A stretch of DNA of 33,811 nucleotides, taken from NCBI GenBank assembly GCA_945877355.1, contig CAMCRT010000021.1, positions 1 to 33,811 on the forward strand, written 5' to 3'. Under the pieces are notes generated by a model. It saw only the letters and a program-made list of their open reading frames with translations, did no database searches and was not told where the DNA came from. Origin of the DNA: an uncultured Mitsuokella sp. (GTDB lineage Bacteria; Bacillota; Negativicutes; Selenomonadales; Selenomonadaceae). Made by a program: the position numbers and the translations under genes. This document shows, one piece after another, positions 522 through 15,702 of this stretch; position 1 is the first letter of the stretch, and each line of letters opens with the position of its first letter.

Positions 522-1856
522 CTATTCCTCCTCCCGGAGGCGCTTGCGGGTCCAGCCGTAGGCGATGGCGAGAGGCACGCAGGAGCCGAGCCAGGCCATG
601 GGGTTCGCCAGGCACGCGCCGAAGTAGCCGATCCAGCCGCAAAGGAAGATGGCGGCGCCAGAGCGCATGAGGAGCTCCATGATGCCCGCCACCGTGGGCA
701 CGACGCTCTGGCCGAGGCCCTGGAGTGTGTAGCGGAAGATAAAGAGGAAGGAAAGGATCCAGTAGCAGACGCCGTTCACGATGAGGTAGGTGTGGCCGTA
801 CTCGATGACATCCGGGTGGCCGTCCCCCACAAAGAGGTGCAGCATGGCTGGGCCAAAGGCGATGAGAAGTGCCCCGGCGGCGAGGCTGAAGGAGACGCTC
901 ATGTAGCAGCACTTCCGCACGCCCTCCCGGATGCGGGAGAGCTTCCTCGCCCCGTAGTTTTGCGCCGTGTAGGCCGCCATGGCGATGCCGAAGGACATCA
1001 TGGGCATCATGGCGATGGACTCGATCTTCTGGGCCGCCGCATAGGAGGCCACAGCCACGGGCCCCAGCCCATTTAGCGCGATCTGGAGGATGACGGCGCC
1101 TATGGCGATGATGGAGCCCTGGAAGCCCATGGGAAGGCCGATGCGCAGGTGCTCCGCGAAGATGCGGAGGGGTACGCGGAAATCCTCCCTATGCACATGG
1201 AGCTGGGGCACGAAGCGATAGATGTAGAAAAGACAGCAGGCATTGGCGCAGAGCTGGGCCGCGATGGTGGCAAGGGCCGCCCCGGGGATGCCCCAACCAA
1301 AGACGAGGATGGCAATGGGCTCGAAGACGATGTTGAGCCCGAGCCCGATGGTCTGGAGCACGAGGGGGCCCTTGCTGTCCCCCAGGGCCCTTATGAGGTT
1401 CACCCCCGTCTGGAGGAAGATGAAGGCCGCGATGCCGCTGTAGATGAGGGAGATAAAGGAGTAGGCGCCGTCTAGTATCTCCGGCGGCGTCTCCATGAGG
1501 AGCAAGAGCTCCCGGCAGGAAAGGACGCCGAGGGTCGTCAGGACGACACTGGCGAGGGCCGCAAGGATGGCGCAGGTGGCCCCGCTCTGGCGCACCCCTG
1601 CCATATCCCCGGCGCCGAACCGCTGGCCCGTGTAGATGGAGATGCCACTGGTGAAGCCGATGATGAAGCCCAGCATGAGGAACATGAGGGCACCGGTGCA
1701 GCCCACCGCCGCCAGGGCCTCCACCCCCAGGAACCGTCCCACGATGAGGGTGTCCACGAAGGCAAAGAGCTGCTGCATGATATTGCCCGCCAAGAGCGGC
1801 AGCGTGAAGAAAAAGATGAGCCGCGCCGGGCTCCCCTCCGTCATATTCTTGACCAT
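522..1856 (-). CDS. MATE-family multidrug/sodium antiporter
   Basis: This 444-residue, almost entirely hydrophobic protein has about twelve predicted membrane helices in two similar halves, the normal size for MATE exporters. Typical family segments are visible: a start with P-R-L-I-F-F-F-T-L-P-L-L-A-G-N, D-T-L-I-V-G-R-F-L-G in helix 1-2, and A-A-Q-K-I-E-S-I in the second half. Members use Na+ or H+ gradients to expel cationic compounds across the inner membrane; the substrate cannot be predicted here. The gene starts 4 bp after the DUF218 gene ends, and its GGAG site lies inside that upstream end, so the two are probably co-transcribed and coupled. The downstream side (257-521) shows no obvious strong terminator. 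Confidence 0.93.
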   Translation of the reverse strand: MVKNMTEGSPARLIFFFTLPLLAGNIMQQLFAFVDTLIVGRFLGVEALAAVGCTGALMFLMLGFIIGFTSGISIYTGQRFGAGDMAGVRQSGATCAILAALASVVLTTLGVLSCRELLLLMETPPEILDGAYSFISLIYSGIAAFIFLQTGVNLIRALGDSKGPLVLQTIGLGLNIVFEPIAILVFGWGIPGAALATIAAQLCANACCLFYIYRFVPQLHVHREDFRVPLRIFAEHLRIGLPMGFQGSIIAIGAVILQIALNGLGPVAVASYAAAQKIESIAMMPMMSFGIAMAAYTAQNYGARKLSRIREGVRKCCYMSVSFSLAAGALLIAFGPAMLHLFVGDGHPDVIEYGHTYLIVNGVCYWILSFLFIFRYTLQGLGQSVVPTVAGIMELLMRSGAAIFLCGWIGYFGACLANPMAWLGSCVPLAIAYGWTRKRLREEE

Positions 1857-10030: not shown

Positions 10031-10089
10031 ATCAGTGACCAAACCTAACTAACAAGGAGATAACCAACATGGCCTCAGCTGATACTTTA
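10009..10089 (+). promoter_or_regulatory. Interlocked inverted repeats covering the transposase start
   Basis: GCCATGTTGGTT (10009-10020) is the exact complement of AACCAACATGGC (10062-10073), which contains the start codon. TAAAGTATCAG (10025-10035) is the exact complement of CTGATACTTTA (10079-10089). The order A-B-A'-B' gives two competing hairpins or a pseudoknot. A and B lie in the promoter, so only read-through transcripts from outside carry them; these would hide the start codon, whereas the element's own transcript would not. Confidence 0.6.
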
Positions 10090-11430
10090 TGCAAAAAACT
10101 GCTCAATGTCAAGCATACTGTTGTAGAATCTCACGATTTTTACACAGGTGCTAACGGTGTTGCCCACCTTCGCATCAAGGCTCGTCCCAATGCGTGGCAT
10201 CAGGATGACTGCCCGTTCTGCGGAAGGCGCTGCCCCGGTTACGACCATCCGGCAAAGCACCGGAAAATTTGGCGCGGACTGGATTTCGGCGGCATCCTTG
10301 TGGAAATCGAGGGTGACACCCACCGGATCCGGTGCCCAGAGCACGGTGTCGTTACGGCGGCTGTCCCTTGGGCTTATCCCGGCAGCAGTTTCACCAAGGA
10401 TTTCGACCTCACCGTTGCATGGCTCGCCGAATACATCCCGAGGAGTGCCGTCGCAAGCTTCATGCGCATCGACTGGCAGACGGTCGGGAACTGCATCTCA
10501 AGAAGCCTGCAGGATCTCGAGCCGGAGCGCTCAAGACGCCTCGACGGCCTTGTCCGCATAGGAATTGACGAGACAAGCTACCGCAAGGGGCATAAGTACA
10601 TCACCGTGATTGTCAATCATGATACCAACACGGTCGTCTGGGTTGCCGATGGCCACGGAAAATCTGTCCTCGAGCAGTTCTACCGGGCGCTGAGCGACAA
10701 GCAGCTGGCCAGCATCGAGGTCGTCACCGGTGATGGTGCCCGTTGGATTACAGACTGCGTCAACGAGTTCACGCCGAACTGTGAGCGTTGCGTCGATCCA
10801 TTCCATGTCGTTGAATGGGCTATGGACGCCTTGGATCAGGTCCGCAAGGATCGTTGGCGCGCGGCATATGCAAAGGCGAGCGAGCTTGCCAAGGAGGCGC
10901 CTAAGAAGCGCGGCAGGGTCAGATCCGATGACCGGGCTGCACAGAAAGCGCTTGCAGCCCGCAAGGAAGCATCCGAAATCAAGAAGTCAACCTACGCCCT
11001 TGGCAAGGCCCCGGAAAATCTTACCGATAACCAGCGGATCCGCCTGGAAATGATTCAGGCAAGAGATCCACAACTGTACCGGGCATATCGCCTGAAGGAA
11101 TCCCTGCGAACGCTCCTGAAATCGTCTGATGTGGATCAGGCCGAAGCTGATTTGAAGCACTGGCTCTGGTGGGCGAGTCATAGCAGGATTCCTGCGTTCC
11201 ATGACCTGTATGAAAAGATCAAGCGGCACAGGGAGCATATCCTGAACACCATCCGGTTGGGATTGAGCAATGCTAGGATTGAAGCAACAAACAACAAAAT
11301 CAAGTTGATAATCCGCAAGGCATATGGCTTCCGGAACATACAGAACATGATGGATATGGTGTACCTCGTATGCTCAGATATCCGGATTCCACTTCCTAAC
11401 AGAAAACCTATGCTAGAGGAACCGGCTTAG
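10069..11430 (+). CDS. tnpA: ISL3-family transposase
   Basis: The 453-residue protein has the ISL3 layout: an N-terminal zinc ribbon (CPFCGRRCPGYDHPAKHRKIW then RCPEHG), a helix-turn-helix region, and a DDE domain with GIDETSYRKG (first D), VTGDGARW (second D) and NARIEATNNKIK (E) followed by RKAYGFRN. A lysine/arginine-rich insertion of about 60 residues (near 285-345) separates D2 and E. It catalyses cut-and-paste or copy-out transposition of the element. The start has AAGGAG 10 nt upstream. Length and motifs look complete, so it is probably active. Confidence 0.95.
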   Translation: MASADTLCKKLLNVKHTVVESHDFYTGANGVAHLRIKARPNAWHQDDCPFCGRRCPGYDHPAKHRKIWRGLDFGGILVEIEGDTHRIRCPEHGVVTAAVPWAYPGSSFTKDFDLTVAWLAEYIPRSAVASFMRIDWQTVGNCISRSLQDLEPERSRRLDGLVRIGIDETSYRKGHKYITVIVNHDTNTVVWVADGHGKSVLEQFYRALSDKQLASIEVVTGDGARWITDCVNEFTPNCERCVDPFHVVEWAMDALDQVRKDRWRAAYAKASELAKEAPKKRGRVRSDDRAAQKALAARKEASEIKKSTYALGKAPENLTDNQRIRLEMIQARDPQLYRAYRLKESLRTLLKSSDVDQAEADLKHWLWWASHSRIPAFHDLYEKIKRHREHILNTIRLGLSNARIEATNNKIKLIIRKAYGFRNIQNMMDMVYLVCSDIRIPLPNRKPMLEEPA

Positions 11431-11553
11431 TTACAGGGGAAATCGGCATTTCTTGCCCACAGGGATGCCCGAAGAGCCTTATTTGTTTGCGCTTTTCGTG
11501 GCTTTCATTTCTTCGTTTTCCCGCTATATCTCCTCGTCTATGAGCTTCTTCCA

Positions 11554-11582
11554 GGGATCACCCCCGCGGGTGCGGGGCCTAC
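11554..11582 (-). repeat. Type I-E-like CRISPR repeat copy a
   Basis: 28 of 29 positions match the copy at 12036-12064. The central palindrome CCCCGCGGGTGCGGGG and the minus-strand start GTAGGCCCC are kept. It directly follows the terminator tail of the small RNA at 11586-11680. Confidence 0.85.
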
Positions 11583-11585
11583 TTG

Positions 11586-11680
11586 AGCAAACGAAAAGAG
11601 CACCAATCGGCGCGGAGGTTGTCAGGCGTCCCGCGTCTACTGCCGGTAGACCGTCCTCTACCGGAGCTGATGCTCTTTCC
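11586..11680 (-). ncRNA. Structured small RNA 1 (class A)
   Basis: A strong minus-strand promoter, TTGACA (11710-11715) and TATATT (11687-11692) with a 17-bp spacer, predicts a start near 11680. Within a few bases the transcript begins AAAGAGCATCAG, which pairs over 12 bp with its own 3' end (11595-11606), including two G-U wobbles that would be A-C mismatches on the other strand. A TTTTCGTTT tail follows. Inside are an eight-pair hairpin CCGGTAGA/TCTACCGG and a CGCGG/CCGCG hairpin separated by CAGTAGAC. The transcript would end at repeat a. No open reading frame with a ribosome-binding site is evident. Function unknown. Confidence 0.7.
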
Positions 11681-11728
11681 AATCACAATATAGCGCGGCC
11701 CAGCGAAAATGTCAATAATAGTCCTCTT

Positions 11729-11757
11729 GGGATCATCCCCGCGGGTGCGGGGTCTAT
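11729..11757 (-). repeat. Type I-E-like CRISPR repeat copy b
   Basis: 27 of 29 positions match the consensus; the changes are at the GTAGG end (ATAGA on the minus strand). It lies directly after the small RNA at 11771-11879 and 14 bp before the -35 of the small RNA at 11586-11680. Confidence 0.85.
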
Positions 11758-11770
11758 ATTGACTGGATTC

Positions 11771-11879
11771 AAAAAAATAGAAGAAGCTACGAGTGAACGC
11801 GGTGAAGGATTTGATTCATCCGCGCCTACTGTCCGCACGCCTACACAAACGCGTCGTGCGGAAGCCGTAGCTTCTTCTA
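11771..11879 (-). ncRNA. Structured small RNA 2 (class A)
   Basis: The minus-strand promoter is TTGACG (11908-11913), a 17-bp spacer and TATATT (11885-11890); from -35 to -10 it is nearly identical to that of RNA 1. The transcript starts near TAGAAGAAGCTACG (11866-11879), which pairs perfectly over 14 bp with 11778-11791 and is followed at once by seven Ts (11771-11777). The interior has an eight-pair hairpin TCCGCACG/CGTGCGGA, then CAGTAGGC and a CGCGG/CCGCG hairpin, the same order as RNA 1, although the outer stem sequences are unrelated. This points to a maintained fold. Function unknown. Confidence 0.75.
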
Positions 11880-11974
11880 AAATCAATATAGCGCAGTCCA
11901 GCGAAAACGTCAATGCAAATCCTCTCGTTCACAGCGATTCTAACGCGCCCGTGAAGCCCGCGCGCGAAGAACGT

Positions 11975-12064
11975 GGGAACATCCCCGCGGGTGCGGGGCC
12001 TACGTCATCTGGGAGTTTATGACAGCGATTGCGCTGGGATCATCCCCGCGGGTGCGGGGCCTAC
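11975..12064 (-). CRISPR. Minimal type I-E-like CRISPR array: repeat-spacer-repeat
   Basis: Two 29-nt repeats (12036-12064, consensus, and 11975-12003, one difference) enclose a spacer of exactly 32 nt (12004-12035), the standard type I-E geometry. The repeat read on the minus strand begins GTAGGCCCCGC and ends GGGGATGATCCC, as in known I-E repeats. A promoter (12081-12089) drives it from the side of the perfect repeat. No cas gene is present in the window, so it would need Cascade made elsewhere. Confidence 0.85.
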
Positions 12065-12080
12065 CTGCCTCCTTTTCTCC

Positions 12081-12089
12081 AGTATACCA
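12081..12089 (-). promoter_or_regulatory. Leader promoter of the minimal CRISPR array
   Basis: TGGTATACT on the minus strand is an extended -10 whose start would fall about 10 nt before the first repeat. The surrounding GATTC-GTGGTATA sequence is shared with the promoter at 13040-13048. Confidence 0.55.
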
Positions 12090-12304
12090 CGAATCCCCCG
12101 AGTGGTCATGTCTCTTGGGGTGGGATTTTTCGTGGGAGAGATTTTTGTCAATGCCCTTCGAGACCTCGATAACTTCATCGAGGACATCCTCTTGCGAGTC
12201 TGCCGCTTTCAGTACAAGGCCGCAAGCATTTTCCTGTCCGCGCTCTCTATGGAGCCGAGAATACTGTCCTCTACCCTCGAATTGCTCTCGCTTTTTCCTG
12301 CCCC
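12090..12304. other. Stretch without a recognised gene
   Basis: Both strands have coding-like fragments in shifting frames (for example NACGLVLKAADSQEDVLDEVIE on the minus strand) but no start, ribosome-binding site or continuous frame, so it may hold a decayed gene. No repeat copy is seen here. Confidence 0.3.
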
Positions 12305-12307
12305 TTG

Positions 12308-12466
12308 TGCTACACTAGGGTAGAAAGATCGCTTGATTTATCGGAAGTAGAGGCACCCCCACGGTTATCGGCTCCAACATTTTTGCCGACGTGGAGACCG
12401 CTCCAGCGTTGGACTCGGAGGCAGTATCTAAGCTCGGGCTGCTATAAATCAGGTGGTCTTTTTTTT
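12308..12466 (+). ncRNA. Structured small RNA 3 (class B)
   Basis: The RNA itself spans about 12323-12466 (144 nt); the feature includes its extended -10, TGCTACACT (12308-12316), in the motif TTGTGCTACACTAGGG. The 5' end AAAGATCGCTTGATTTAT pairs with 12444-12461 over 18 continuous bp, with three G-U wobbles valid only on the plus strand, and runs into eight Ts. An internal hairpin TCGGC/GCCGA carries a 12-nt loop TCCAACATTTTT, and an outer CCACG/CGTGG stem supports it. It shares promoter, length and loop with RNA 4. Function unknown. Confidence 0.75.
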
Positions 12467-12568
12467 GTTTGTCTTTTAGGATTCGTGTCACTCTTTGGAA
12501 TAGCAGGTATCGTGACATAGCAGCCACCATGTCCATCATCCTCAAGATTGAGATAGATGGGGGCATAG

Positions 12569-12592
12569 AAAAACCGCCCTTGTCAGAGCGGT
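12569..12592 (-). terminator. Terminator of the first small paralogue
   Basis: ACCGCTC pairs with GGGCGGT around a TGACAA loop and is followed by five Ts on the minus strand, 13 bp after the stop codon at 12605. Confidence 0.8.
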
Positions 12593-12604
12593 CTTCTTTG
12601 CTTG

Positions 12605-12799
12605 TTACATGGTCTGCGCTTGTCTCGCCCGTCTCATTTCCCCGCCAAGACGGACTGCCGCCACGAACGCGTCCGTGTTCCTATCCTCGTCCTCGATCCA
12701 TTCCCCTGGTTTCCGGGGATGTTTCTTGTCGTATTCCTCTTGAACTTTCGAGAGATATCGGAGGATCTCCGAATTCGTCATCGTTACTCCATGCTTCAT
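12605..12799 (-). CDS. Small conserved protein, paralogue 1
   Basis: This 64-residue soluble protein shares the segment LRYLSKVQEEYDKKHPRKPGEWIE and a following AAVRLG with the gene at 13768-13953, so both are real and duplicated. It is rich in charged residues and has no membrane segment. The promoter is TTGAAA and TACACT with 17 bp between them (12817-12845). The start MKHGVTMTNSE at 12799 is preferred because it aligns with the paralogue. Its ribosome-binding site (GGCGG) is weaker than that of paralogue 2 (GGAGG). Family and function are unknown; proteins of this kind next to repeats could be antitoxin-like, but nothing proves it. Confidence 0.7.
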   Translation of the reverse strand: MKHGVTMTNSEILRYLSKVQEEYDKKHPRKPGEWIEDEDRNTDAFVAAVRLGGEMRRARQAQTM

Positions 12800-12816
12800 A
12801 CGAATCAACCGCCTTC

Positions 12817-12845
12817 AGTGTATCATGATTCTGATCCGGTTTCAA
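12817..12845 (-). promoter_or_regulatory. Promoter of paralogue 1
   Basis: TTGAAA (12840-12845), a 17-bp spacer and TACACT (12817-12822), with TGA before the -10. The same arrangement is conserved upstream of paralogue 2. Confidence 0.65.
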
Positions 12846-12868
12846 TCCAACAATGCGCACAAAGGCTT

Positions 12869-12897
12869 GGAATCATTCCCGCGTGTGGCAGGTCTAC
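12869..12897 (-). repeat. Degenerate CRISPR-like repeat copy e
   Basis: 22 of 29 positions match. The central palindrome is broken (CCCGCGTGTGGCAGG). It follows the small hairpin transcript at 12923-13033 in the same order as the other RNA-repeat pairs. Confidence 0.65.
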
Positions 12898-12922
12898 TTT
12901 TCTCGAATTGGATGTATTCGGA

Positions 12923-13048
12923 AAGCCTGCGGAGTTGATGAAGCGCACTGACAACGCTTCCTCCGCAGGCTTAGAAGACTCAACTCAAAAGGACTGGCAG
13001 GCCAGTGCAACCAGCGCCGAAGAGCCTCCCTCCACCTCTAATATACCA
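12923..13048 (-). ncRNA. Possible structured small RNA 5
   Basis: The extended -10 TGGTATATT (13040-13048) on the minus strand resembles the leader promoter at 12081-12089. Downstream, ACTGG-CCTG-CCAGT forms a small hairpin, and AAGCCTGCGGAG pairs perfectly over 12 bp with CTCCGCAGGCTT (12923-12934 with 12961-12972), with an inner AAGCG/CGCTT stem. The 5' end of the predicted transcript (near 13033) is not part of the long stem and no strong T-run follows, so this is less certain than RNAs 1-4. Confidence 0.4.
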
Positions 13049-13097
13049 CAGAATCAGAAGAATAGCGCAGAGAAAAAAGGAAAATCTTCAGATTAGA

Positions 13098-13126
13098 AGG
13101 ATCATCCCTGTGGGTGCGGGACTTAC
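13098..13126. repeat. Degenerate CRISPR-like repeat copy f
   Basis: 24 of 29 positions match. CCCTGTGGGTGCGGG replaces the perfect palindrome. It lies 15 bp before the -35 of the small RNA at 13177-13246. Confidence 0.7.
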
Positions 13127-13141
13127 TCATTTAGCATATCA

Positions 13142-13246
13142 TTGACACGAGCCAGCATTTGCCATATACTGATTTCAAGAGGGAGGGTTCCTTCTCTACT
13201 ATCCTGCGATAACAAGCGGGCTTGAGGAGAGGAGCCCTCCTTTTCC
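13142..13246 (+). ncRNA. Structured small RNA 6 with its promoter
   Basis: TTGACA (13142-13147), a 17-bp spacer and TATACT (13165-13170) form a near-consensus promoter with a start near 13177. GGAGGGTTCCTTCTCT (13182-13197) pairs with 13225-13240 in 15 of 16 positions; three pairs are G-U and valid only for the plus-strand RNA. TTTT follows. The loop is 27 nt. The transcript of about 70 nt ends 20 bp before repeat copy g. There is no sign of coding. Function unknown. Confidence 0.65.
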
Positions 13247-13266
13247 TCTGCCATTACATCGTACAA

Positions 13267-13295
13267 GGGATCATCCCCGCGGGTGCGGTACTCCC
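13267..13295. repeat. CRISPR-like repeat copy g with a degenerate end
   Basis: The first 22 bases are identical to the consensus; the GGGCCTAC end is replaced. Such one-sided decay is common in terminal repeats of arrays. Confidence 0.75.
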
Positions 13296-13348
13296 CTGCT
13301 CATAGCGTGTGCCCACGCCAAGGGGACGACGGTTCATATAGTTTTTGT

Positions 13349-13386
13349 ATTTCTTTTCCGAACTTTTTTTATTTCTTCTCCGAACT
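13349..13386. repeat. Two direct copies of a 16-bp T-rich sequence
   Basis: ATTTCTTTTCCGAACT (13349-13364) and ATTTCTTCTCCGAACT (13371-13386) have a 22-bp period and end 27 bp before the -10 of small RNA 4, a place where an activator could bind. Confidence 0.45.
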
Positions 13387-13410
13387 GTTCTGGATTTTTT
13401 TTAATTCTTG

Positions 13411-13567
13411 TGCTACGCTAGGGATAAAAGGAACGTTGTTCTTCCCATGGGTGGTCGGGGATGAGCTGACTCCGCCTTTGTTGTCAGCCTCCTCTAGAAG
13501 GGTGCCGTCGGCGGTAGCGGCAGACGGATTCACACTCCCGTCAAAGAGCAACGTTCCTTTTATTTTT
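13411..13567 (+). ncRNA. Structured small RNA 4 (class B)
   Basis: The RNA spans about 13424-13567 (144 nt, the same as RNA 3); the feature includes the extended -10 TGCTACGCT (13411-13419) in the shared motif TTGTGCTACGCTAGGG. The 5' end ATAAAAGGAACGTTGTTCTT pairs with 13544-13563 over 20 continuous bp with one G-U wobble, and five Ts follow. An inner hairpin GCTGAC/GTCAGC carries the 12-nt loop TCCGCCTTTGTT, which resembles the loop of RNA 3 although the stems differ; a second hairpin CCGTC/GACGG follows. A 60-codon frame on the opposite strand has no support. Confidence 0.78.
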
Positions 13568-13664
13568 CGTTATGCAGCATGACAGAAACTTGCAGAACAC
13601 GCTTGATTTCGTTCACTGCCCCAGGCTTCTTATCATCTAAGAATCCGTGATCCCCCTCTTTCAT
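13560..13664 (-). pseudogene. Possible gene remnant or small ORF
   Basis: A frame of 34 codons (MKEGDHGFLDDKKPGAVNEIKRVLQVSVMLHNEK) looks coding and continues upstream without a start codon (ERGSFDVTQDSSIDAAKRD) to a stop near 13737. No ribosome-binding site is seen. It ends inside the terminator of small RNA 4. It may be the tail of a decayed gene. Confidence 0.25.
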
Positions 13665-13767
13665 GTCGCGCTTAGCCGCATCGATGGAAGAATCCTGCGT
13701 TACATCGAAGCTCCCTCTTTCGCTGGTGGGATATGCTCATGCTTGCTTTCCTTGGTCGTTATACGGT

Positions 13768-13953
13768 CTATACTTGCTTCGCTTTGCGTTCTTCCATCCC
13801 AAGACGGACTGCCGCCATCCACGATTCGTGGCTGCGTTCCTCGTTCTCGATCCATTCCCCCGGTTTCCGAGGATGTTTCTTGTCGTATTCCTCCTGAACT
13901 TTCGATAGGTATCGGAGGGTCTCCAAATCCGACATTGTTGCTTCATGCTTCAT
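13768..13953 (-). CDS. Small conserved protein, paralogue 2
   Basis: This 61-residue protein starts MKHEATMSDLETLRYLSKV and shares the central EEYDKKHPRKPGEWIE stretch and the C-terminal AAVRLG-MEERKAK region with paralogue 1 at 12605-12799. It has a strong ribosome-binding site (AAAAGGAGG 9 nt upstream) and a promoter conserved in both copies. In both cases a class B small RNA lies on the plus strand a short way past the gene's 3' end, so protein gene and RNA may have been duplicated together. Function unknown. Confidence 0.75.
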   Translation of the reverse strand: MKHEATMSDLETLRYLSKVQEEYDKKHPRKPGEWIENEERSHESWMAAVRLGMEERKAKQV

Positions 13954-13980
13954 ACGAATCAGCCTCCTTTTGTTACCTTC

Positions 13981-14009
13981 AGTGTATCATGCTTCTGCTT
14001 CGGCTTCAA
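13981..14009 (-). promoter_or_regulatory. Promoter of paralogue 2
   Basis: TTGAAG (14004-14009), a 17-bp spacer and TACACT (13981-13986), with the same surrounding bases as the promoter of paralogue 1. Confidence 0.65.
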
Positions 14010-14121
14010 GCCAACGCTTCGTGAATATATCAATGTTCTCAGTTTACCACAGTGCCGCTGAGCTGATTCAAGAAGCGAAGGATGAATTCCATGCTGAAGG
14101 CAACGTGGAATTGTAAAAAAG

Positions 14122-14163
14122 AAACTCCAGCTTCCCCTCAAATCGGGGTTCGCTGGAGTTTTC
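14122..14163. terminator. Terminator of the gal/lac operon
   Basis: AAACTCCAGC (14122-14131) pairs with GCTGGAGTTT (14152-14161), with an inner CCCC/GGGG pairing and A/T-rich flanks on both sides. It lies 28 bp past the galT stop and also closes the accessory island. Confidence 0.85.
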
Positions 14164-14190
14164 TTTCTATAGGGGAAAGTAGAACAGCCT

Positions 14191-15702
14191 TCAGAGCTGG
14201 TCGTCGTTTATGGAAGCTGCGAAGCGGTCGAAGGCGGTGAGACCCGCTTCGTCGCGCTTGAAGACGCCGGCGTCCGTTAGGACCTGGCTGAATACCTGGC
14301 CGATCTCGTCCCGGAGGATTTCCTGGACCTTGTCCTCTGAGACCTGGCCGTATTTCTCGTGGAGCATGTCGTACCAGTCGGCGTGGGCGGCGATGGCCTT
14401 GTTCTCGCGGATGGATTCGTCGCCGCGGGTGAGGGCCTCTCCCACCAGGCGCATTTCTTCCTTCAGGCGACCGGGGAGGACGGCGAGGCCCATGACTTCG
14501 ATGAGGCCGATGTTTTCCTTTTTGATGTGGTGGACCTCGGCGTGGGGATGGAAGATGCCCAAGGGGTGCTCTTTGCTTGTGCGGTTGTTCCGGAGGACGA
14601 GATCGAGCTCGTACTGGCTGCCCCGGCGACGGGCGATGGGCGTGATGGTGTTGTGGGGCGTGTGGTCAGTCTCCGCGAGGATGCCGACGCTTTCATCGCT
14701 GTAGTTCCGCCATTTCCCGAGAATCTTCGTGGCAAGCTCCACCAGCTCCTCCCGGTCGTCGCCTGCGAGGCGAAGGGCGGACATGGGCCACTTGATGCGG
14801 CCGGCGGTGATACCGTCGAAGCCCTCGAACTTGTAGGGCTTTTCCACCGGGGCCTTTGCCATAGCGAAGGTGTAGCGGCCGCCCTGGTAGTGGTCGTGGG
14901 AGAGGATAGAGCCCCCAACGATGGGGAGATCCGCATTCGACCCCAGGAAGTAATGGGGGAAAATCGTGACGAAGTCCAGAAGGTTCTCGAAGCTCCGGCG
15001 TGTCACCTGCATGGGGATATGCTTCCGGTTCAGCACGATGCAGTGCTCATTGTAGTAGGTATAGGGGGAGTATTGGAGGAACCAGCGGTGGCCGGAGAGG
15101 CGCACGGGGATGAGGCGATGGGTCTCCCGGGCCGGATGATGGGCGTTGCCGGCGAAGCCCTCGTTTTCCCGGCAGAGCAGGCACTTCGGATAGCCGGAGG
15201 ACGGGGCGCTCTTTGCCTTGGCGATGTCCCGGGGGTCCTTCTCGGGCTTTGACAGGTTGATGGTGATGTCGAGGTCGCCGTACTCCGTCTTTGTCTGCCA
15301 GACGATGTTCTTCGCGATGCGGTCGCTGCGGATGTAGTTCGACGCGATGCTCAGCTTATAGAACCGGTCCGTCGCCGCCTTCGGGCTGCGGGCGTAGTCA
15401 TTCTGGAAGCGGCGCACCACCTCGGTGGGGCGGGGCATGACCGCGTCCATGAGGCGGGTGTCGAAGAGATCCCGCTCGTTCTGCGTGTCCTCGATAATCC
15501 CCTTTTCTGCTGCGAAGGCCAGGAGGTTCTCGAGAATGGGGGCCGGGGATGTGAGCTGTTCCTCCACCTCCTCGGGCACATACTCCACCACGCCCAGGAG
15601 GTCGATGAGGCGGTTCGCCGCGTAGTAGGTGTCGTCCTCGCTGATGAGCTCGTGGGCCCTTGCAAAGCTCAGGAGCCTGTTTATCTCATGCTGGATATCC
15701 AT
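14191..15702 (-). CDS. galT: UDP-glucose--hexose-1-phosphate uridylyltransferase, type 2
   Basis: GalT exchanges UMP between UDP-glucose and galactose 1-phosphate in the Leloir pathway. The 503-residue length and the segments CLLCRENEGF, ILSHDHYQGG and GIFHPHAEVHHIKKENIGLIE identify the Firmicutes-type (family 2) enzyme; the HPH triad with the nucleophilic histidine is present. The ATG at 15702 (MDIQHEINRLL) is chosen: it lies 1 nt past the galE stop with GGTGAT 4 nt upstream. The ATG at 15714 is an alternative that overlaps galE. It is the last gene of the operon and is followed by a terminator. Confidence 0.95.
   Translation of the reverse strand: MDIQHEINRLLSFARAHELISEDDTYYAANRLIDLLGVVEYVPEEVEEQLTSPAPILENLLAFAAEKGIIEDTQNERDLFDTRLMDAVMPRPTEVVRRFQNDYARSPKAATDRFYKLSIASNYIRSDRIAKNIVWQTKTEYGDLDITINLSKPEKDPRDIAKAKSAPSSGYPKCLLCRENEGFAGNAHHPARETHRLIPVRLSGHRWFLQYSPYTYYNEHCIVLNRKHIPMQVTRRSFENLLDFVTIFPHYFLGSNADLPIVGGSILSHDHYQGGRYTFAMAKAPVEKPYKFEGFDGITAGRIKWPMSALRLAGDDREELVELATKILGKWRNYSDESVGILAETDHTPHNTITPIARRRGSQYELDLVLRNNRTSKEHPLGIFHPHAEVHHIKKENIGLIEVMGLAVLPGRLKEEMRLVGEALTRGDESIRENKAIAAHADWYDMLHEKYGQVSEDKVQEILRDEIGQVFSQVLTDAGVFKRDEAGLTAFDRFAASINDDQL

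Follow-up and report, generated by a model that had tools for sequence, protein, structure and literature searches.

A 33,811-nucleotide (nt) stretch of DNA from an uncultured Mitsuokella sp. (contig CAMCRT010000021.1; hereafter the window, to whose positions coordinates refer unless another locus is named) contains five units, U1 to U5, each with a promoter, a fold in which the 5' end pairs with the 3' end, and a T-run. A preliminary description, made from the letters alone, had located these units, and all five were found again at the same positions and on the same strands. We propose that the units are probably the RNA halves of phage nuclease-RNA modules, presumably antitoxins, which the host has kept without the nucleases. 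Relatives of the units have a conserved RNA fold and conserved promoters, are strictly linked to a nuclease domain, and are retained after loss of that partner.

Linkage of the RNAs to nuclease domains

Relatives of U2 and of U3/U4 were recovered by BLAST in 189 Selenomonadaceae genomes, and four of the five units belong to two related pairs. U1 has a core (CAGTAG..CGCGG) in common with U2, and U3 resembles U4 in its promoter and in the layout of its kissing hairpins; the differences lie in the outer stems. Thus, the earlier statement that the fold and not the sequence is shared holds for the outer stems but not for the U1/U2 core or for the layout and promoter of U3/U4. We refer to the two groups as family A (U2, with U1 as subtype A') and family B (U3, with U4 as a more distant look-alike, B2).

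Many relatives lie antisense within long open frames (953, 1356, 1898, 1345 and 3080 codons), and would therefore be missed by intergenic searches. Several of the enclosing frames encode phage polyvalent proteins, as judged from LPD38, LPD23, ddrB-ParB, SNF2 and SLT domains. The relatives are mostly placed in the linkers of such giant proteins, antisense, at a distance of 0-20 nt from the 3' end of a nuclease-type domain. The domain that precedes the family A RNA is PBECR1 (PF18809). PBECR domains are predicted ribonucleases (RNases) that phages are believed to package and to inject along with their DNA (PMC5512222).

A search for PF18809 was performed independently of the RNA in 380 Negativicutes genomes. 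Fourteen PBECR1 domains scored above the Pfam cut-off, and all 14 are abutted by an antisense RNA. Thirteen of these RNAs were found by covariance model R1 with filters off (E 8.5e-30 to 3.6e-4), with a gap of -7 to +20 nt to the domain. The RNAs of the modules in G129 and G224 are intact. The RNA at the fourteenth domain (genome G190) was missed by R1 and recognised by eye; it has a TTGACT-17-TATAAT promoter, a 14-bp end stem (AAAGAGCTTTGAAG/CTTCAAGGCTCTTT) and two hairpins. Since the reading frame of G190 ends ahead of the RNA, the RNA is not retained merely as coding sequence. At the single PBECR1 match below the cut-off (G064), no such RNA was visible, and a PBECR1 search in plasmids gave none.

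Model R1 was built from family f1 alone, and its matches in four other families again abut PBECR1 in five of nine cases. A viral contig (L194) carries three PBECR1 copies, each with its own RNA behind it. In Selenomonadaceae, the PBECR1 subtype matches the RNA subtype (4/4 and 4/4). RNA similarity and domain similarity are correlated over 15 modules (Mantel r 0.61), a value reached in none of 20,000 permutations.

The partner of family B is a domain without a name, and the 60-residue stretch ahead of the B RNA in G183 was used as a query against the same 189 genomes. Three matches were obtained, each beside a B RNA (G180, G183 and the window). The match in the window (12469-12567, minus strand, E 5e-6, 52% over 33 amino acids) is a decayed remnant. 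The stem, core and promoter of U3 are intact although the partner protein is reduced to a fragment. U3 thus represents the RNA part of a module with a decayed protein.

Fold, promoters and positions of the units

Family A consists of an outer stem (P1), a hairpin (P2), a conserved GCAGTAG motif and a further hairpin (P3). In family B, P1 encloses three hairpins, and there are two additional pairings: the P2 loop kisses the P3 loop, and the 5' strand makes a short contact with the P4 loop. In the first alignments, changes on both sides were found at 24 of 31 pairs for A and at 15 of 30 pairs for B1. The larger family A alignment (25 distinct rows) shows compensatory changes at 29 of 30 pairs with 92.4% of cells paired, compared with at most 49% in slid controls, and that of family B shows them at 25 of 39 pairs, pseudoknots included, with 96.4% paired; both were fitted to models, which favours the structure, and covariation is already visible in the seed alignments made by plain MAFFT. 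The kissing helix of family B is 100% paired, with AU-to-GC and CG-to-UA changes. At the kissing position, CCGCC/GGCGG and CCACC/GGTGG were seen by eye in B2 sequences. Arms that vary independently, which the preliminary description had named as grounds for abandoning its view, are therefore not what is found, and the covariance-model search that it suggested did detect homologues in related genomes. A P2-P3 loop-loop contact in family A was also considered; it suits some members, no single register fits throughout, and it is not claimed.

The units gave no Rfam match at the gathering score, and lax thresholds gave sub-threshold, chance-level matches only, in agreement with the first impression that no described RNA family has this arrangement. 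Families A and B are covarying RNA families absent from Rfam. The motif TGnTAnnnT occurs within 30 nt upstream of 18 of 30 family members, whereas 2000 shuffles led to an expectation of 1.4 and never gave more than 6. A T-run of at least four was found at the 3' end of 23 of these 30 members. Pattern scans for the B type in IMG/VR yielded chance matches only. The A pattern was found in no IMG/VR record and in four Selenomonadaceae records of GTDB, one named Mitsuokella jalaludinii.

Within the window, the outer stems of the five units measure 13, 14, 19, 20 and 20 bp, inside the 12-20 bp first reported. The G-U pairs in these stems had been counted as 2, 0, 3, 1 and 3; a recount gave 2, 0, 4, 1 and 4, so that three units stand as described and two do not. 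The claim that the fold belongs to the promoter strand was borne out in all five units (promoter strand/complement, kcal/mol: -41.5/-37.7, -52.9/-48.4, -51.3/-38.7, -62.8/-55.3 and -39.3/-26.3). Against dinucleotide shuffles, the z scores of the folds are -3.0, -7.6, -3.1, -5.1 and -5.2. U1 matched R1 with 59.9 bits (E 2.5e-14, 11593-11681), being itself among the eight R1 seeds. U2 (114.9 bits, model R1) and U3 (143.3 bits, model R2) are seeds of the models that they match, and the U2 match is by construction. Relatives of U4 were detected by BLAST in G181, in contig C18 of the window's own genome (G000) and in G101. No relatives of U5 were found, and this unit rests on its own fold and promoter.

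A blind scan was performed for a -10 box with an extended -10 or a -35, combined with pairing of the 5' end with the sequence before a T-run. It gave five matches in the 2.8 kb from 11401 to 14200 (U1 twice, U2, U3 and U5), whereas 60 shuffles gave 0.05 on average and never more than 1. U4 was missed because its -10 is TACGCT. The remaining 31 kb of the window gave three more matches, one of which is the end of an ISL3 element. The blind scan and the fold statistics together place the observation well beyond chance. The features are listed in Table 1. An ISL3-family transposase gene lies immediately upstream of the cluster (10069-11430).

Table 1. Units, promoters, partner remnant and repeats in the window.
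Feature	Positions	Strand	Basis and remarks
Type I-E CRISPR repeat	11554..11582		likeness to the G002:C6 array
U1, structured RNA, subtype A'	11586..11680	-	fold z -3.0; relatives adjoin PBECR1b nuclease domains
U1 promoter	11687..11715	-	-35 TTGACA 11710-11715, 17-nt spacer, -10 TATATT 11687-11692; sequence reading, scan
Type I-E CRISPR repeat	11729..11757		with the 11554 repeat encloses U1 and its promoter, 146-nt "spacer"
U2, structured RNA, family A	11771..11879	-	fold z -7.6; relatives adjoin PBECR1a nuclease domains
U2 promoter	11885..11913	-	-35 TTGACG 11908-11913, 17-nt spacer, -10 TATATT 11885-11890; sequence reading, scan
Type I-E CRISPR repeat	11975..12003		with the 11729 repeat encloses U2 and its promoter, 217-nt "spacer"
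Type I-E CRISPR repeat	12036..12064		61 nt after the 11975 repeat, normal 32-nt spacer
U3 extended -10 promoter	12308..12316	+	TGCTACACT; promoter analysis
U3, structured RNA, family B1	12323..12466	+	end stem and three hairpins, kissing loop CCAAC/GTTGG; covariation
Decayed remnant of family B partner domain	12469..12570	-	FYAPIYLNLEDDGHGGCYVTIPAIPKSDTNPKRQ; antisense, 3 nt from U3; protein search and translation
Degenerate CRISPR repeat	12869..12897		
Degenerate CRISPR repeat	13098..13126		
U5 promoter	13142..13170	+	-35 TTGACA 13142-13147, 17-nt spacer, -10 TATACT 13165-13170; sequence reading
U5, short promoter-driven stem-closed RNA	13177..13246	+	fold z -5.2; scan
Degenerate CRISPR repeat	13267..13295		with the 13098 repeat encloses U5 and its promoter, 140-nt "spacer"
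U4 extended -10 promoter	13411..13419	+	TGCTACGCT; sequence reading
U4, structured RNA, type B2	13424..13567	+	loops CCGCC/GGCGG at the kissing position; fold z -5.1

Orphan RNAs and the CRISPR repeats

No PBECR1 match was obtained in G000. This genome contains at least ten such RNAs, four of family A and six or more of the B type, on contigs C3, C18, C21 and C34, and the scan detected other promoter-stem units there as well. Among 16 family A RNAs tested, 11 have no adjacent PBECR1. A decayed PBECR1 was looked for beside the orphan family A RNAs and none was found.

Clusters of such units occur elsewhere. In G000:C18 (locus L038, 1765-3100), a chromosomal cluster near an argininosuccinate lyase-like gene has at least five promoter-stem RNA units and no CRISPR (clustered regularly interspaced short palindromic repeats) repeats; they are of families A, B1 and B2, with two units unassigned. 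In a different bacterial family, a family A RNA lies directly beside an apparent family B RNA (L224, G232:C26, 4916-5016). Mixed orphan clusters thus also occur outside the genome of the window. At L042 (G135:C1, 4444-4943), units A, B1 and A' lie in 500 nt beside a resolvase gene, with a PcfJ-like mobile-element gene nearby.

The repeats that the preliminary description had called CRISPR-like are genuine type I-E repeats, nearly identical to those of an intact 61-nt-period array of the same genus (G002:C6). The palindromic repeats of about 29 nt keep the 61-nt period at 11975/12036, and the other intervals are oversized. Cse1 was not found in the window's genome, which is 93% complete, so that some doubt remains. 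The repeats are a genuine but relic type I-E array around the units. They do not belong to the RNA system, since they are lacking in the neighbourhood of most homologues. The array of Mitsuokella jalaludinii DSM 13811 (G039:C41) has intervals of about 1488, 1785, 619, 379 and 556 nt that hold pieces of polyvalent-type genes, including PBECR1 with its RNA. In this strain, an RNA of about 100 nt that ends at a T-run is predicted on contig NZ_JNKR01000041.1 (about 899-996, minus strand).

Giant-interval I-E arrays were seen at L048 (G039:C41, 12-5537), L054 (G041:C6, 6-4030) and L001 (G000:C65, 12446-12864). In these arrays, intact repeats are separated by intervals of about 247 to 1785 nt that contain phage gene fragments, small complete open reading frames (ORFs) and RNA units; a single literature search for CRISPR arrays with giant intervals found no description. 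Two promoter and end-stem RNA units unlike A or B occur in L048 (4380-4762 and 5374-5511), one of them behind a 126-codon ORF (..VYVRTAFYSTDQNLDAWLEKNKR..). These extra units suggest more RNA families with other toxin domains. In the window, the inter-repeat interval 12898-13098 contains an open frame ending in ...STSNIPQNQKNSAEKKGKSSD and a stop, with an antisense -10 box and a hairpin, resembling another linker-nested RNA outside the current models. A duplicated block on the minus strand (12638-12851 and 13792-14015, 83-88% identical) has, by eye, a small ORF (MTNSEILRYLSKVQEEYDKKHPRKPGEW...) beside an apparent C-terminal remnant of a zeta toxin, and a similar pair was seen by eye in L049 (G120:C519).

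The interpretation offered in the preliminary description is thus supported; the nuclease context, the two related pairs and the relic array lay beyond its view.

Proposed function and comparison with known systems

A separately promoted, end-paired RNA that stands beside each PBECR domain and outlives it in hosts fits an enzyme-blocking antitoxin. Polyvalent proteins of Negativicutes phages carry an RNase-type domain (PBECR1 for family A, the unnamed domain for family B), followed by a small opposite-strand gene with its own promoter, usually within the linker that comes next in the protein. The RNA is closed by the 5'-3' stem, with two or three hairpins inside and a kissing loop in family B. 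In the mechanism that we propose, it most likely binds and blocks the adjoining nuclease, as type III antitoxins and RCd22 of AbiF do. A lysogen or host that makes the RNA would survive the nuclease delivered by an incoming phage. The host of the window has gathered several such RNAs, some of them between the repeats of a dead type I-E array. More tentatively, bacteria may possess a repertoire of orphan antitoxin RNAs of phage origin, some of them kept as whole RNA genes between CRISPR repeats, as a protection against phage-injected RNases.

Several points weigh against the antitoxin interpretation. We infer transcription, binding, inhibition, the protective role and the antitoxin function itself, and the RNase activity of PBECR1 is a prediction; Foldseek with a PBECR1 model gave only weak RelE-like matches. 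The correlation of RNA and domain similarity would also follow from physical linkage alone. In Bordetella phage BPP-1 and in a Helicobacter phage, the model finds no RNA abutting PBECR1, and it gives a correctly placed match at only 5 of 37 PBECR1 loci in IMG/VR. At a sixth (L169), the RNA looks right by eye; a duplex-energy test, directed at end stems that follow PBECR1 in viral loci, lacked the necessary sensitivity. The partner is therefore established for Negativicutes only. Since there is one genome per species, and many are metagenome-assembled, an absent nuclease may be unassembled, even in G000 at 93% completeness. The family A copy in C18 and the copy in G004 have no recognisable promoter, and some orphan RNAs may be decaying.

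Rather than inhibiting the nuclease, the RNA could be its cofactor, its substrate or its cargo; it might, for instance, be virion-bound or serve to aim the enzyme. The strict one-to-one pairing of RNA and domain, and a fold elaborate enough for a stable ribonucleoprotein, are in keeping with this. However, a cofactor would be of no use without the enzyme, yet orphans are common (the 11 of 16 above) and the window retains U3 beside a dead partner domain, and we consider this function unlikely. An antisense or transcription-interference regulator (type I-like), lowering expression of the polyvalent gene in the lysogen, would explain why the RNA is invariably directed toward the nuclease gene from the opposite strand. 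What is conserved, however, is a fold with compensatory changes; complementarity to the domain is not. The RNA stops roughly at the domain border without covering the domain, in G190 it lies beyond the stop codon, and orphan copies retain fold and promoter where no target gene is present. A regulatory role is accordingly quite improbable.

Two further explanations are very improbable. If the element acted as DNA, as a palindromic recombination or insertion element (like a miniature inverted-repeat transposable element, MITE, or the in-frame palindromic type of Rickettsia) shuffling polyvalent domains, its recurrence in many contexts, and its place where domains adjoin in proteins whose mosaicism is known (PMC5512222), would be natural. 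The loop-loop covariation, however, is a feature of RNA, and promoter and T-run are retained. A MITE family, which the preliminary description had named as a possible refutation, is ruled out by variable ends around a conserved interior, the reverse of conserved terminal inverted repeats. Nor do the units appear to be CRISPR-linked RNAs with functional repeats, such as the CreTA toxin/antitoxin RNAs. In CreTA, the unit has a degenerate repeat and a spacer that guides Cascade to the promoter of the RNA, near cas genes. U1, U2 and U5 each do occupy one interval between type I-E repeats. However, most homologues lie far from CRISPR repeats, inside phage genes, Cse1 was not found in the window's genome, and its Cas1 genes are unlike the weak-scoring kind near the I-E arrays of G002 and G039; complementarity between spacer and promoter was inspected cursorily. 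A retron msr-msd RNA was rejected, as no reverse transcriptase was found among the 20 window proteins scanned, cluster neighbours included.

If the antitoxin interpretation is true, immunity to phage-delivered toxins can be an RNA, collected by hosts without the toxin; the more tentative repertoire of orphan RNAs would correspond, at the level of RNA, to arrays of orphan immunity genes. A dedicated RNA partner would also be gained for the RNase domains of phage polyvalent proteins, whose control by RNA we did not find described. The 14 nuclease-RNA pairs, located by coordinates, make the predicted function directly testable.

The present modules resemble the type III toxin-antitoxin systems (ToxIN, CptIN and TenpIN; PMC5086642) in combining an endoribonuclease, here a predicted one, with a small pseudoknotted RNA, although a direct block of the protein by the RNA is only proposed here. 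A predicted RNase domain abuts the RNA at each of the 14 PBECR1 loci. Type III RNAs are made of short tandem repeats and precede the toxin, which follows behind a terminator in the same operon, read from one promoter (PMC5086642). Here, in contrast, one RNA of about 90-145 nt, a single-copy fold rather than a tandem-repeat array, accompanies each nuclease domain; it is downstream, convergent, on the opposite strand and separately promoted, and the nuclease forms one domain within a huge phage protein. Since gene order, RNA architecture and protein all differ, we do not file the modules as type III.

AbiF-RCd22 (PMC12373285) resembles the proposed modules in that the toxin is prophage-encoded and a structured RNA neutralises it in cis and in trans, by direct binding. 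Its protein belongs to Abi_2, not PBECR, its RNA is different (no Rfam match here), and nesting inside another gene and orphan RNA clusters belong to the present case, not to AbiF-RCd22. The PBECR domains described in phage polyvalent proteins (PMC5512222) are of the same nuclease family, PF18809, which scores above the Pfam cut-off beside the RNA at the loci homologous to family A, no PBECR1 being left in the window. The text of PMC5512222 does not mention a noncoding RNA, and the RNA partner is new here. In the MuF polymorphic toxins of temperate phages (PMC5576092), a toxin is likewise followed by a small presumed immunity element, which is thought to be a protein there and would be an opposite-strand RNA here. 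Phage phi-TE has a stand-alone antitoxin-like RNA in a phage-host conflict (PMC3475682); that phage mimics the host RNA ToxI, whereas the present host seems to keep the RNAs of phages.

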